Virus record (IMG/VR): IMGVR_UViG_3300049450_000044
Span: 1-41,314 of that record
Length of the DNA: 41,314 nt
Strand: one strand, 5' to 3'
From: a virus
Shown: piece after piece, positions 2,720 to 41,137 of the stretch
Position numbering within the stretch: position 1 is the first letter of the stretch
Layout: every line of letters begins with the position of its first letter
The notes under the pieces: model-generated
What the model was told of the DNA's origin: nothing
The model's database searches: none
Seen by the model: only the letters and a program-made list of their open reading frames with translations
Program-made: the position numbers and the translations under genes

Positions 2720-3287
2720 CGCCAACCCACCACAGTGCGTAGCTACACAACCTGCCGCGCATCACCCGGCGTGCATCCGCGTCCGATGGGCCGTCCTCGC
2801 CACCTACCCAAAAGCCGAAGCCTGGGCCGAACAGAACCTCCGCCAACGCGGCTACACCCCCTTCCTCCCTCGCTACACCACCAGAGTCCGCGATCACTCA
2901 ATCCCATCCCTGGTCCGCGAAGCCTCCCGCCCGCTGTTCGCAGGTTACATCTTCTGCCAGCACAACACCGCCGATCCATGGCGACCAATCCGTTACTGCC
3001 CAGGCATCCGCGCCAACCTTATCGGCGGCAAAGGAGTCCAGTATGCCAACGCGGGCGCTGTGAGCGTGCTACAGGCCAGCGAGGCGCTTCGCCACAGACC
3101 AACCCCTCAGGAACCGTCCTGGCGCCCTGGTGATGCCTGTCAGCCCCGCGACGGGCCATTCGGCGGCCTGCCTGGAGTGGTCCTCAGCACCGAACGACAC
3201 AATGCAACCGTCGGCATCCTCTTCCTCGGACAACTCCGCGAAGTCGTCTACCCATTCGATGCCATCATCAGTAGGAACGACTTCTAG
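2709..3287 (+). CDS. NusG/RfaH-like transcription antiterminator
   Basis: This 192-residue protein combines an NGN-type domain (about residues 25-110: WAVLATYPKAEAWAEQNL, then RGYTPFLPR, then PLFAGYIFC) with a C-terminal KOW-like domain (about 135-185: GDACQPRDGPFGGLPGVV). Both are hallmarks of NusG paralogues such as RfaH and UpxY, which bind RNA polymerase and suppress pausing or termination. It closes the early rightward operon ahead of the late genes, the place taken by Q in lambda, so late-gene antitermination is the natural inference. Spacer 1 of the CRISPR array at 17986 resembles codons 36-46 of this gene. Confidence 0.85.
   Translation: MPLDANPPQCVATQPAAHHPACIRVRWAVLATYPKAEAWAEQNLRQRGYTPFLPRYTTRVRDHSIPSLVREASRPLFAGYIFCQHNTADPWRPIRYCPGIRANLIGGKGVQYANAGAVSVLQASEALRHRPTPQEPSWRPGDACQPRDGPFGGLPGVVLSTERHNATVGILFLGQLREVVYPFDAIISRNDF
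2815..2846 (+). other. Protospacer-like site for spacer 1 (RfaH-like gene)
   Basis: This stretch matches spacer 1 (18015-18046) at 22 of 32 positions. Fifteen of the first 16 match, and the single early mismatch is at position 6, which usually does not count in type I-E. It is immediately preceded by AAG (2812-2814), the classic type I-E PAM. Substitutions respect the reading frame: the spacer reads AETWADTNLQR against AEAWAEQNLRQR here. It marks the locus that the spacer would target in a relative. Confidence 0.6.
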
Positions 3288-8525: not shown

Positions 8526-8746
8526 CCGAGCAGGAGCGCACCAACGGGCTGCTGGCGGGGATCTCGGAGCGGCTGATCAAGGCGCTCCCGCCGGCCATGG
8601 TCGTCCTAGTCCTATTGAATATCGGCACCTTGGGCATGGTCGCGTACATTTTCCAGCACAATTCAGATGCCAGGAATGCGCTGTTGACGAAGATCGTTGA
8701 AAATTGCTTGCTTCGTTCTCCGAAAGAGGGCGATGCGAGCCGCTGA
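8522..8746 (+). CDS. Small membrane protein, 74 aa
   Basis: GTG at 8522 overlaps the preceding stop by four bases. A soluble N terminus (TEQERTNGLLAGISERLIKAL) precedes one membrane helix at about residues 25-45 (AMVVLVLLNIGTLGMVAYIF) and a basic tail with KIVENCLLRSPKEGD. The tail overlaps the convergent GIY-YIG gene by 84 bases, so the last residues may have been altered by that gene's arrival. The function is unknown. Confidence 0.6.
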   Translation: MTEQERTNGLLAGISERLIKALPPAMVVLVLLNIGTLGMVAYIFQHNSDARNALLTKIVENCLLRSPKEGDASR

Positions 8747-9460
8747 TATCTTGGCGCGCTGTTCGGCTGACATGGGGCCTCTTTTCTTGCCCTTCCAAAT
8801 CGCTGAGACGGCAGCGCGAGTTTGTGGGGGACAAGGCCTGCGGTTTTTGCCCTTCAGAGCAGCCGACTGTTTTGCACGCGTCTCTGCGGAACGTTTCACA
8901 CCACGACGTGCGGCCGCCGACTTAGCAATGACTTCCGGAGGCAGTGGTTTGCCCTTCTTGCTGGCGGATAGCTTTGCGCGCCACTCCGGCGAACGGTTCT
9001 GCTGGGCGGCAACTAGTTTGGCAACATGCTCGGGAGACCGGTTGCTTTGAAATGCGGCGATTTGGGCGCGTTGCTGCGCCGACATCGGCGGCATCTTCCG
9101 GCCAATGCGACTGGCTGACATGGCGGCGCGGTGCTCCGCAGTAGCTATCCACCCGCTGGCGCCGTCTCCACCATCTGTCTGGTTGGCCAGAGGCCCGAGC
9201 CCTTTGTCCCAACGGCCGATGGCAGCGATCAGTGCCTTTTCATAGGCGAACGCCACGTCTTCTGTCAGGTTCTCATGCAGTATGATCGATGGAATGCCGC
9301 AACCAGTTGCCTGCATTTTGCGGATAATTCTTTCCTTATGGCGGTTTCGGTTTCCCTGGTATCCGGACTCTCGCCATCGATCTCCCATCCCCTTTCCCAC
9401 GTAGAAAGGGACGCCGGTTTCACGGAACAGGACATAGATGTAGAACTCGTTGGCAGCCAT
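8663..9460 (-). CDS. GIY-YIG homing endonuclease with NUMOD3-type repeats
   Basis: This 265-residue protein starts at 9460 behind a near-perfect AAGGAGG. The N-terminal GIY-YIG nuclease domain (residues 1-95) shows FYIYVLFRETGVPFYVGKG, the conserved Arg in DRWRESG, and a Glu in AFAYEKALI. The rest is a chain of basic repeats of the form (S/A)xE(H/T)RAKxSAAxKGK, typical of NUMOD DNA-binding modules. It interrupts the packed operon in antisense orientation, as expected of a homing gene, and it also brings about 130 bases of 5' noncoding DNA. Confidence 0.9.
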   Translation of the reverse strand: MAANEFYIYVLFRETGVPFYVGKGMGDRWRESGYQGNRNRHKERIIRKMQATGCGIPSIILHENLTEDVAFAYEKALIAAIGRWDKGLGPLANQTDGGDGASGWIATAEHRAAMSASRIGRKMPPMSAQQRAQIAAFQSNRSPEHVAKLVAAQQNRSPEWRAKLSASKKGKPLPPEVIAKSAAARRGVKRSAETRAKQSAALKGKNRRPCPPQTRAAVSAIWKGKKRGPMSAEQRAKISAARIALFRRTKQAIFNDLRQQRIPGI

Positions 9461-9593
9461 ATGATCCTCCTTCCAGGGTCGTTGGTCAGGAGGGCGGTGG
9501 CGTGGCAAGCGCTGCCGTTCTCCGCTGACAAGTATAGCATGGCCTGCTGCGACCGTGAGGCTTCAAAACTTTGATTTTGAAGAGTAGGAACCC

Positions 9594-10185: not shown

Positions 10186-10398
10186 TTGCCACAATTGACC
10201 ATCCTAGAACAGGTAGACGAGGCGACATCTCTCGCGCGGAAATCGTTCGCAGTGGGCGACCTGGTGGGCGGCATCGCGGCCATTCAATTGGCAGCACACT
10301 TGCTGCAACTGGCGCGTATCAGCCAAAAAGTAGCCCCGCACTCACACGGGAGATACGGGGCGCTGAAGTTCTCGGACTTATCGCGGACCTCAGTATAG
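10186..10398 (+). CDS. Small hypothetical protein, 70 aa
   Basis: The frame uses TTG at 10186 and has a plausible helical N-terminal half (LTILEQVDEATSLARKSF, then AAIQLAAHLLQLARISQK). The C-terminal 20 residues run through a hairpin at 10326-10362 and into the end of the minus-strand mini-CRISPR array, so the true end may have been altered. The ribosome site is weak. It may be a genuine gene whose 3' end was disrupted by the array. Confidence 0.4.
   Translation: MPQLTILEQVDEATSLARKSFAVGDLVGGIAAIQLAAHLLQLARISQKVAPHSHGRYGALKFSDLSRTSV
10326..10362 (-). terminator. Rho-independent terminator for leftward transcription
   Basis: On the minus strand GCCCCG pairs with CGGGGC around an inner CTC/GAG helix, and the stem is followed by TACTTTTT. 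It lies about 35 bases beyond the last repeat of the minus-strand mini-array, so it is well placed to end the array transcript. It also lies inside the 3' part of a plus-strand frame. Confidence 0.6.
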
Positions 10399-10399
10399 C
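10391..10399 (-). promoter_or_regulatory. Extended -10-like element next to the terminal repeat
   Basis: On the minus strand the sequence TGCTATACT is a close match to an extended -10 box. The same nine bases occur at 9532-9540 ahead of the GIY-YIG gene. A start here would give a transcript of about 60 bases ending at the terminator at 10326. No good -35 box is seen, and part of that region is the terminal CRISPR repeat. Confidence 0.3.
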
Positions 10400-10485
10400 A
10401 CATCCCCGCTGACGCAGGGAACACTCGGCGTCGGTCCAAGGGACTCTGACGACGTGCGGTTCAACCCCGCTTAGCGGGGAAGGCG
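10396..10485 (-). CRISPR. Degenerate mini-CRISPR array, type I-E-like, two repeats and one spacer
   Basis: Read on the minus strand, a 29-nt repeat at 10485-10457 has the CCCCGC/GCGGGG stem and an 8-nt end TTGAACCG, as in type I-E. A 32-nt spacer (10456-10425) follows, then a second 29-nt repeat (10424-10396) beginning GTGTTCCCTGCGTCAGCGGG. The period is exactly 61. The second repeat matches the terminal repeat of the array at 17986 at 22 of its first 24 bases. The spacer translates as HVVRVPWTDA, close to GVISVPWTDE in the adjacent GcrA-like gene. There are no cas genes; a terminator lies downstream. Confidence 0.75.
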
Positions 10486-10517
10486 ACCACCTACCACAAT
10501 CATGGAGGCCAATGCCA

Positions 10518-10802
10518 ATGGCAGACATGAAGGGCGTCATATCCGTTCCCTGGACGGACGAGGAGCGCACGACGCTGCGCCGGATGTGGGCGAATGGCAT
10601 GGGTCCGACGCTCATCGGAAAGCTGCTGGGGCGCTCCCAATACTCCGTCTCCAAGCAGACGCAGGCACTGAAGCTGCCGCGACACCGGCTGCCGCCCGGC
10701 CTGGCGCCGTCGCCGGAACCCCGCCAGCGACCACCACAACCGCTGCGACCCGGCGCCCGCACGCTGCCGCCGCTGCCGAGTGAGATGAACGTACACGAAT
10801 GA
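10518..10802 (+). CDS. GcrA-like DNA-binding protein
   Basis: The start at ATG 10518 is preferred because GGAGG (10504-10508) is nine bases away, whereas the ATG at 10512 is too close. Residues 8-52 (VPWTDEERTTLRRMWANGM, then IGKLLGRSQYSVSKQ) match the N-terminal helix-turn-helix of GcrA-type regulators, including the Trp-Thr-Asp/Glu start. The remaining 40 residues are Pro/Arg-rich and probably disordered. In alphaproteobacteria GcrA controls cell-cycle promoters. A phage copy could recruit polymerase or act in packaging; which one is not visible. Confidence 0.75.
   Translation: MADMKGVISVPWTDEERTTLRRMWANGMGPTLIGKLLGRSQYSVSKQTQALKLPRHRLPPGLAPSPEPRQRPPQPLRPGARTLPPLPSEMNVHE
10533..10564 (+). 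other. Protospacer-like site for spacer 3 (GcrA-like gene)
   Basis: This site matches the spacer of the minus-strand mini-array (10425-10456, read in reverse complement) at 20 of 32 positions. It is preceded by AAG at 10530-10532. Differences fall largely at synonymous or conservative codon positions, so seven of eleven encoded residues agree when the next codon is counted. It is the weakest of the three spacer matches taken alone. Confidence 0.45.
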
Positions 10803-17985: not shown

Positions 17986-18136
17986 GTGTTCCCCGCAGGC
18001 GCGGGGATGACCCGCCGAAACCTGGGCCGACACCAACCTGCAACGCGTGTTCCCCGCAGGCGCGGGGATGACCCGGAGTAGACCATGGCCGTTCCCGCAC
18101 AGGGAGCGTGTTCCCTGCGTGTGCGGGGATGAAACC
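17986..18136 (+). CRISPR. Phage-borne mini-CRISPR array, type I-E, three repeats and two spacers
   Basis: Repeats start at 17986, 18047 and 18108, a constant 61-nt period, with 29-nt repeats and 32-nt spacers as in type I-E. The first two repeats are identical (GTGTTCCCCGCAGGC, then GCGGGGATGACCCG), with a CCCCGC/GCGGGG stem and an 8-nt tag ATGACCCG. The third is degenerate (GTGTTCCCTGCGTGTGCGGG, then GATGAAACC), as usual for the leader-distal end. Spacer 1 is 18015-18046 and spacer 2 is 18076-18107. Spacer 2 resembles the start of this phage's capsid gene and spacer 1 its RfaH-like gene. No cas genes are present, so host Cascade would be needed. Confidence 0.93.
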
Positions 18137-18374: not shown

Positions 18375-18406
18375 GAGATGGACATGGCCGTTCCCGCACA
18401 GGGAGC
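18375..18406 (+). other. Protospacer-like site for spacer 2 (capsid gene start)
   Basis: The site matches spacer 2 at 28 of 32 positions, including 24 consecutive bases from 18383 to 18406. The preceding bases 18372-18374 are ATG, an accepted type I-E PAM. The four mismatches are at spacer positions 4, 5, 7 and 8, all in the seed. The window covers the ribosome site and start codon of the capsid gene. Confidence 0.85.
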
Positions 18407-19430: not shown

Positions 19431-19913
19431 CTAGGTTCTGTCGAGATAGGCGATCAGCTTGAGAAGCCGATTGCGGTCGTCTCGCACATTGCCCAGAGCC
19501 AGGTTGCATTCCCGGCACAGCCAGCCACGGAAATGGCCCTTCTGGTGACAATGGTCGAAATGAAGTGCGCGTCCCTTGTCTGGCGCTCCGCCGCAAGCAT
19601 CGCACATCTCGGGCCGAGGACGTCCTGCCAGCACCTCCAAATCCACAGCGCGTTGAAGGCGATTGCGTGCTTGGTGTTCCTTCTCTTTGGCTGTTATCTC
19701 GCCATACTCGCCGCGGATGTATCTGCGATTGGCTTCTCTGATCTTTTGGCGGTTCTTCTCGCGATAACGTCGCCGGTTCTCGCGCAAGGCTTCGCGGTTC
19801 TTTTGGGCATATTCCTTCTGATAGGCAGCGCGAGCCTCGCGGTTTTCCGCAACCCAAGTTCGCATATAAGCGGTCTTGATAGACTTGCGCGTCTCGTCAT
19901 CATCATATGGCAT
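19431..19913 (-). CDS. Endonuclease VII-like homing nuclease
   Basis: This 160-residue protein has a long basic N-terminal helix with repeated REANRRYI-like units. A C-terminal recombination-endonuclease-VII-type domain follows, with CDACGG, then LHFDHCHQKGHFRGWLC and RECNLALGNV. The paired cysteines bind zinc and the His-Asp-His forms the beta-beta-alpha-metal active site. It lies antisense between the capsid gene and the next structural gene, the common habitat of homing nucleases. Confidence 0.85.
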   Translation of the reverse strand: MPYDDDETRKSIKTAYMRTWVAENREARAAYQKEYAQKNREALRENRRRYREKNRQKIREANRRYIRGEYGEITAKEKEHQARNRLQRAVDLEVLAGRPRPEMCDACGGAPDKGRALHFDHCHQKGHFRGWLCRECNLALGNVRDDRNRLLKLIAYLDRT

Positions 19914-36110: not shown

Positions 36111-36315
36111 GCGTTCGTGGGAGCCAAATAACGACCAGCACCGCGAATAGCACAGTGAAGACGTTGTCGTGGCCAACAGCGGCTGCGTTCACGAGCAGTA
36201 GAACGACAGCGCCAATGGTGCAGGCCATGCACACATACCAGCAGCCGTTGTACCATCGGGCGATTACGATAGCGGCGATGAAGAGCGTTGCGATCCCGGC
36301 AAGCAGTTCCATCAC
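36076..36315 (-). CDS. Small membrane protein, three helices, 79 aa
   Basis: Three hydrophobic segments are visible: LLAGIATLFIAAIVIARWY, VCMACTIGAVVLLLVNAAAV and VFTVLFAVLVVIWLP, followed by a basic tail. The size and number of helices fit a class I holin, but it is the last gene of the leftward early operon and no endolysin is adjacent. It may instead be a superinfection or membrane-modifying protein. Start 36312 is also possible. Confidence 0.55.
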   Translation of the reverse strand: MMELLAGIATLFIAAIVIARWYNGCWYVCMACTIGAVVLLLVNAAAVGHDNVFTVLFAVLVVIWLPRTLRRHLARVAHR

Positions 36316-40171: not shown

Positions 40172-40474
40172 GTGCCGATACGTGCCGCCGCCGTCCATAA
40201 CCAAATCCTCACGTCACTAATTGACGGAGGTAAGTTTAGCGACCCTGAACAGGTTACGCAAGCGGAAATGTGGAATGCAGCCAAAATCAGGTTAGACCGG
40301 CTAAACGAGGCTAGGAATGCTGCTTCTTCCTTGTTCGTCGAGGCGCTGGGCTATCCGGTGGTGGGTCTGGGGGAGGATCAGCGAGTAACCTTGCGGTATG
40401 CTCGATCATCAGCACAAGTCCTGCCTGCTTGTCTGGCGGCACTGCTCGAATTATCTGAGCTATTGCCTCCGTGA
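40172..40474 (+). CDS. Hypothetical protein convergent with the repressor, 100 aa
   Basis: GTG at 40172 is preceded by a perfect AAAGGAGG, which argues for a real gene. The N-terminal 60 residues look protein-like (AVHNQILTSLIDGGKFSDPE, then WNAAKIRLDRLNEARNAASS). The last 55 residues lie antisense to the repressor gene. The 164-base tail-to-tail overlap is unusual. The function is unknown; a role in the genetic switch is possible from position. Confidence 0.55.
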   Translation: MPIRAAAVHNQILTSLIDGGKFSDPEQVTQAEMWNAAKIRLDRLNEARNAASSLFVEALGYPVVGLGEDQRVTLRYARSSAQVLPACLAALLELSELLPP

Positions 40475-40682
40475 TTTCGTCCACCGGCATGCCGGGGATC
40501 AGGTCGGTTATCCGCATATCCAGCAGGACGGCGAGCTGTGCCCGCCGCGTGATCGATGGCTTGGTCGTGCCGCTTTCCCACTGATTAACCGCGCTTCGCC
40601 CGACGCCCAGCGCCCTGGCCACATCCTGTTGGGATAGCCCTGCTTTCGTCCTGGCTGCCGCGATTCGTTCGCCGATGGTCAT
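40311..40682 (-). CDS. CI-type repressor, HTH (XRE family)
   Basis: The start at 40682 is chosen because residues 1-60 form a complete XRE helix-turn-helix (GERIAAARTKAGLSQQDVAR, then ALGVGRSAVNQWESGTTKPS). The longer frame to 41069 would run through the divergent gene. The rest is short (123 residues in all), with ITEAIAQIIRAVPPDKQAGL and a Pro/Arg tail, so it lacks a LexA-like cleavage domain. It probably represses the divergent promoters flanking the operator at 40719. Confidence 0.8.
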   Translation of the reverse strand: MTIGERIAAARTKAGLSQQDVARALGVGRSAVNQWESGTTKPSITRRAQLAVLLDMRITDLIPGMPVDEITEAIAQIIRAVPPDKQAGLVLMIEHTARLLADPPPDPPPDSPAPRRTRKKQHS

Positions 40683-40718
40683 ACCGTTGGTATGCCATAA
40701 CCGTTGTTCAGTTTCCCT

Positions 40719-40733
40719 GCACAAATATTGTGC
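40719..40733. promoter_or_regulatory. Perfect 15-bp operator-like palindrome
   Basis: GCACAAATATTGTGC is a perfect inverted repeat (GCACAA, three-base centre, TTGTGC) midway between the divergent repressor and Cro-like genes. Direct repeats ACCGTTG at 40683 and 40700 lie nearby. It is the natural binding site for one or both regulators. Confidence 0.6.
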
Positions 40734-40808
40734 GGTTTCGAACATTGATGGCTTGCCAATCGGTTTAGGGTCGCTTAACGTGGTCGGATGCCCGCTGGCC
40801 TCACCGGA

Positions 40809-41024
40809 ATGGACCTGCTGCGCTCGCCCGCTTGCCGTGGTTTCCGGGCTTTGATCGCTCGGGAACTCGGCATCGAGCGGGGGGCTGTCTCGCAGTGGCG
40901 ACAGATACCCGCTGAGCGGGTTCCGGCCATCAGCCGCATTACCGGCATCCCACGTCATCTGCTGCGGCCCGACCTTTGGGAGCCGCATGATTGTGCCTGC
41001 CGTGAGCCAGCGGAGGCTGCCTGA
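40809..41024 (+). CDS. Cro/YdaS-like transcription regulator
   Basis: ATG 40809 is preferred because homologous proteins begin at this MDLL; ATG 40788 is an alternative. The 71-residue product has the YdaS-type helix-turn-helix: FRALIARELGIERGAVSQWR, then QIPAERVPAISRITGIPRHL and LRPDLW. It is divergent from the repressor and heads the rightward early operon, as Cro does in lambda. It probably represses CI synthesis or early promoters. Confidence 0.8.
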   Translation: MDLLRSPACRGFRALIARELGIERGAVSQWRQIPAERVPAISRITGIPRHLLRPDLWEPHDCACREPAEAA

Positions 41025-41137
41025 ACGCCTGACGCCTGCACCAAGGGAGGGAACCGTATGCACACACACAACAGCCTGCTCACACGCTTACCCTCGCTCG
41101 GCTCGTTCTGGCAGCTTGGCGTAGTGGCGTAACGGTC

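Follow-up and report, generated by a model that had tools for sequence, protein, structure and literature searches.

A cas-less, type I-E-like mini-CRISPR array in a tailed phage is probably directed against related phages

The window analyzed here, a single 41,314-base virus record with terminase, portal, SU10-type capsid and tail genes, carries a minus-strand unit of two type I-E-like repeats around one spacer at about 10.4 kb. This cas-less, virus-borne mini-array very probably turns the CRISPR defense of the host on related phages, and action on competing viruses is its most likely role. The direct basis for this reading is the anatomy of the array, the matches between spacers, protospacers and PAMs, the escape of the carrier's own copies, reciprocal targeting, and the turnover of sites and spacers. 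Named relatives of the phage are only distant (e.g., Sinorhizobium phage phiM5), megablast of the window against named phages returned no match, and we found no description of this lineage in the literature searched. The window also has GIY-YIG/NUMOD3 and endonuclease VII-like ORFs in the style of homing endonucleases (8663-9508 and 19431-19913, both minus strand), which lie opposite the structural-gene strand.

The initial annotation had described minus-strand type I-E-like repeats with a 61-nt period around a 32-nt spacer, and this proved exact to the base (Table 1). The first repeat, R1, keeps the 6-bp stem, the 3-nt loop and, as had been claimed, the 8-nt tag TTGAACCG. The second, R2, retains the stem and loop with a tag degenerated to ATGTGCTA, and the two repeats differ in sequence from each other. 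Folding of the minus-strand RNA, which had been suggested as a check, gave the expected type I-E hairpin for R1 and R2 alike. Scored against a type I-E-like consensus, the R1/R2 pair reaches 40 of 46, and the best of 500 first-order Markov surrogates of the whole window reaches 34. At a much looser threshold some repeat pair appears in 28 of 300 dinucleotide shuffles, or about 1 in 10 shuffled windows, so that the case rests on the strict pair score and on comparative evidence. The terminal repeat is 92% alike over 24 nt to that of a plus-strand mini-array elsewhere in the window, A1, and Rfam gave no meaningful match for either array. The 10.4-kb unit thus has the layout of a virus-borne type I-E mini-array: at least two repeats of about 29 nt, 32-nt spacers and a 61-nt period.

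Table 1. Features of the mini-arrays, their targets and flanking elements in the window.
Feature	Position	Strand	Details
Repeat R1, type I-E-like	10457..10485 (read 10485..10457)	-	CGCCTTCCCCGCTAAGCGGGGTTGAACCG; 3-nt loop; tag TTGAACCG
Spacer, 32 nt	10425..10456 (read 10456..10425)	-	CACGTCGTCAGAGTCCCTTGGACCGACGCCGA
Terminal repeat R2	10396..10424 (read 10424..10396)	-	GTGTTCCCTGCGTCAGCGGGGATGTGCTA; hairpin intact, tag decayed
Putative leader with promoter-like element	10486..10520	-	TGTGGTAGGTGG, just upstream of R1; similar to leaders in L027, L253 and the relic of L004; by comparison only
Conserved minus-strand element	10326..10402	-	Extended -10-like TGTGCTATACTG, GCGATAAGTCCGAGAAC, intrinsic terminator; in array-less relatives; would end the array transcript
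GcrA-like small DNA-binding protein gene	10512..10802	+	Orthologue in relatives is the spacer target
Own orthologue of the protospacer	10533..10564	+	AAG PAM retained; mismatched at 12 positions, among them 1, 2 and 7 of the seed (self-immune allele)
Mini-array A1, 3 repeats and 2 spacers	17986..18136	+	Repeats 17986-18014, 18047-18075, 18108-18136; 32-nt spacers 18015-18046, 18076-18107
Own orthologue of A1 spacer 2 target, major capsid gene start	18375..18406	+	ATG PAM; mismatched only at seed positions 4, 5, 7 and 8
Own orthologue of A1 spacer 1 target, NusG-like gene	2815..2846	+	AAG PAM; 10 mismatches
Protospacer hit by L058/L059 mini-array spacer 1	36202..36233	-	32/32, ATG PAM

Related phages in IMG/VR (denoted by L numbers) read AAG-CACGTCGTCAGCGT... 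at the start of the GcrA-like gene. Against this sequence the spacer has four mismatches in L026 (positions 12, 18, 29, 30; AAG PAM), four in L313/L321 (positions 12, 15, 18, 30; AAA PAM), and five or six at the GcrA-like gene starts of other relatives; positions 1-11 match perfectly in L026 and L313/L321. Since every sixth guide position is unpaired in type I-E systems, most of the mismatches to L026 and L313/L321 should be tolerated. Here, codon wobble also falls on every third position, and the mismatch spacing may be partly coincidental. In Escherichia coli type I-E, AAG is the optimal PAM and ATG is among the good ones (PMC5904413). A perfect protospacer was found neither among the related phages nor by an exact search of IMG/VR, and a degenerate form of the spacer searched in IMG/VR returned one relative, L321. 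Relatives are thus matched next to a type I-E PAM, and the window's own orthologue, 108 bp from the spacer, is mutated.

The same pattern extends across the lineage. Relatives were gathered from IMG/VR by the GcrA-like gene, by the capsid gene and by profile search, and a scan of them for further arrays gave 274 hits (redundant) on the real sequences and 1 on reversed sequences. When 12 spacers from 9 array loci of the lineage were compared against 181 loci, 10 matched other phages at 0 to 6 mismatches; reversed and shuffled controls reached 7 to 11 at best. Spacer L058p_s2 had no match among the 181 loci, and L058p_s3, which has a match with 5 mismatches and no PAM, was excluded from the hit count. 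Best or tied-best targets usually have AAG or ATG as PAM, some of the ATG PAMs being start codons; the exceptions are L005p_s1, for which CAG is best, and L019_s1, L027_s1 and L058m_s1, which have mixed sets. Every spacer compared with its own copy matches relatives better than self, and local duplication of the carrier's own gene was rejected on this ground as the source of the 10.4-kb spacer.

A1 provides the clearest matches. Its spacer 2 matches the capsid-gene start of L052, L054, L055, L058, L059 and others at 32 of 32 positions next to an ATG PAM, and its spacer 1 matches L163 with a single mismatch (position 6) next to an AAG PAM. Of the mismatches between spacer 1 and its own copy, only the one at position 6 is in the seed. 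Moreover, targeting is reciprocal: spacer 2 hits L058/L059, and spacer 1 of the L058/L059 mini-array hits the window in return, both perfectly. The two mini-arrays initially reported in the window are indeed both present; that count falls short of the lineage, where sister phages carry more, aimed at each other. At the capsid locus itself, L071-L077 and L086 match the gene over about 1290 bases rather than 993, some 300 more, and the gene-start sequence occurs in two copies in L073 and L074.

These matches bear on the reading that the array is an RNA anti-CRISPR (Racr), whose repeats would be decoys drawing host Cas6e and Cas7 into dead complexes, the spacer being irrelevant. Racrs for type I-E do exist; they mimic repeats, and a predicted promoter often precedes them (PMC10651486). 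In addition, R2 is degenerate, and one relative, L004, has a solitary repeat at the same site that would qualify as a Racr. However, the 10.4-kb array is not a solitary repeat lacking a targeting spacer: its spacer is of exactly the right length, and sister phages contain targets for it beside a PAM, which also holds for most spacers of the lineage. A pure decoy would need neither a matching spacer nor mutated copies of the target in its carrier, and we regard this explanation as improbable.

The 10.4-kb site was followed through the related phages, as had been proposed. It is empty in most of them. L027 and L253 have arrays with different spacers there, so that three spacers are known from the site, and all three target the GcrA-like gene beside it. 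The protospacer of the L253 spacer overlaps that of the window spacer with a 3-nt shift and has a separate ATG PAM, which suggests that the two spacers were acquired independently. The L253 array at this site has the 29-nt sequence of R2 as its terminal repeat, too. The solitary repeat of L004 is as expected after loss of the spacer through recombination between repeats. One leader with different spacers is also found at other sites, in the plus-strand arrays of the window and L058 and in the minus-strand arrays of L019 and L058. In L019, the place where the window has its 10.4-kb mini-array is taken up by a minus-strand tRNA-like sequence (CAT anticodon), just upstream of 9076. The proposal that the arrays have a selected function is supported by the PAM-flanked protospacers, by the differing spacers of L027 and L253 at one site and by the arrays of sister phages.

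Turnover of this kind argues against a non-functional relic, i.e., a fragment taken up from a host array and now in decay. Such decay would account for the difference between the repeats, the decayed tag of R2 and the collapse to one repeat in L004. Against it, the R1 and R2 hairpins are intact, spacers have been exchanged at the same sites among relatives, the carrier's own targets are mutated, and elsewhere in the lineage targeting is both perfect over 32 nt and reciprocal. We therefore consider a relic very unlikely.

The terminator that had been noted after the array is present, with a stem at 10351-10334 followed by a T-run (z = -4.4), but it belongs to a conserved element rather than to the array. 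In array-less relatives the same place holds a promoter-like box, TGTGCTAKGMTG, then GCGATAAGTCCGAGAAC and the terminator; the terminator is therefore independent of the array. This element of about 75 nt also occurs in L003, L004, L005, L010, L016, L020, L025, L077 and L086, has no match in Rfam, and could be a small RNA gene. On the other side of the array, a sigma-70 scan reported no promoter within the putative leader.

PADLOC, run on 40 ORFs of the window with some short or overlapping ORFs left out, gave no Cas hit, and on that set of ORFs the virus lacks cas genes. The minus-strand ORF at 40311-41069, which has a repressor-type helix-turn-helix and weak PADLOC matches, is possibly a phage repressor. 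The exact A1 repeat is absent from a collection of 84,980 genomes. A degenerate repeat search of that collection gave 32 loci of mixed taxa, with similar repeats in Rhodobacteraceae, Ectothiorhodospira and others, which do not settle the host. Comparison of 689 host spacers with the phages yielded one match, that of a Marivita spacer in L187 to L176 with three mismatches and a CAG PAM, and this single match was judged too weak to name a host.

We infer that the array is expressed, is processed by Cas6e and directs interference, and that the type I-E system of the host is compatible with it. After infection, a phage promoter immediately preceding R1 would drive minus-strand transcription of the array, and the transcript would end at the terminator at 10334-10351. 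Host Cas6e would cut the repeats and the 32-nt guide would be loaded into host Cascade, which presupposes such a host. Cascade-Cas3 would then attack co-infecting relatives with the AAG-CACGTCGTCAG... GcrA-like allele. The carrier would be spared by the seed mismatches of its own allele.

The arrays tend to lie close to the genes they target. The distances from spacer to own orthologue are 108, 299, 194, 175, 542, 186, 1177 and 15,200 bp. For six of the eight lineage spacers that have an own orthologue, it is at most 550 bp away, against a chance of about 3% in a 41-kb genome; collecting relatives around two genes inflates this proximity somewhat, and about 20 long records were added to lessen the bias. 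Partial own matches also occur in three phages on contigs chosen by repeat pattern alone, L225, L232 and L240, whose DNA has little or nothing in common with the window. These matches lie 150, 107 and 100 bp from the array and have 7, 9 and 6 mismatches, respectively; 869 null searches for own matches reached 9 mismatches once and otherwise at least 10. The 41-kb record IMGVR_UViG_3300046376_000041 carries three mini-arrays (L261 4579, L261 7121 and L232 7927), with one spacer partly matching a gene 107 bp off.

Proximity, together with the AAG PAM kept by the own orthologue, would also suit a CreR/CreA-like guide by which host Cascade represses the adjacent gene of the phage through partial complementarity without cutting, but this is the least probable explanation, since the own copy of the only target detected mismatches at seed positions 1, 2 and 7 and at nine more, E. 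coli Cascade needs PAM-proximal pairing (PMC5904413), and relatives beat self for every spacer compared.

For an array directed at related phages, proximity is the sole basis of a further hypothesis, that each array is a CRISPR-powered homing element, which targets the rival allele of the adjacent gene and is linked to its own immune allele. In a mixed infection, host Cascade-Cas3 would break the rival genome at the target gene, and repair from the carrier would copy the array and the immune allele into the rival, giving biased conversion. We regard this idea as speculative and rather unlikely. More likely is a weaker form, in which selection keeps the array together with the immune allele, since any recombinant that has split the two destroys itself. 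The lineage offers a clean data set on why virus-borne spacers target adjoining genes, and both the linkage and the homing models are directly testable.

The 10.4-kb array belongs to a known kind of virus-borne mini-array, that of the Saccharolobus portogloboviruses SPV1 and SPV2 (PMC6858448). As in those viruses, there are one or two spacers without cas genes, one genomic position holds differing spacers, close relatives are targeted reciprocally, own orthologues are mutated, and targets lie near the array; Medvedeva et al. call the origin and consequences of this proximity in SPV1 and SPV2 unclear (PMC6858448). Linkage between array and target gene is thus already known and is striking here; what we propose is linkage to an immune allele, possibly with homing-like spread. 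Unlike SPV1 and SPV2, which are archaeal viruses with host-like leaders, the present carriers are tailed phages; their repeats are type I-E-like and, within one array, unequal, their leaders are of phage type, and their PAMs are AAG or ATG. Mini-arrays of phages and prophages from Faure et al. 2019, as far as they are recounted in PMC6858448, PMC8616872 and PMC7099407, consist of one spacer with a full repeat on one side and a truncated or altered one on the other, and some of their spacers match adjacent genes of related viruses. Cas-less phage mini-arrays with one spacer, an altered second repeat and leaders unlike those of the host are likewise on record (PMC8616872, PMC7099407). The 10.4-kb array shares their single spacer and altered second repeat, whereas this lineage has in addition a dense network of reciprocal targeting and an accessory site whose cargo is interchangeable. 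Racrs (PMC10651486) are similar in being cas-less CRISPR repeats near promoters in phage genomes, but are solitary, in contrast to the two repeats around a targeting spacer found here. Free-standing phage homing endonuclease genes are proximal to essential genes and can drive recombination between genomes (PMC10448857), features that the arrays would share under the homing hypothesis, except that a guide RNA would give the specificity and the nuclease would be the host's. Conflict between viruses by means of mini-arrays, best shown in archaeal viruses, is thereby extended to a lineage of tailed phages that target each other in a dense, reciprocal network.
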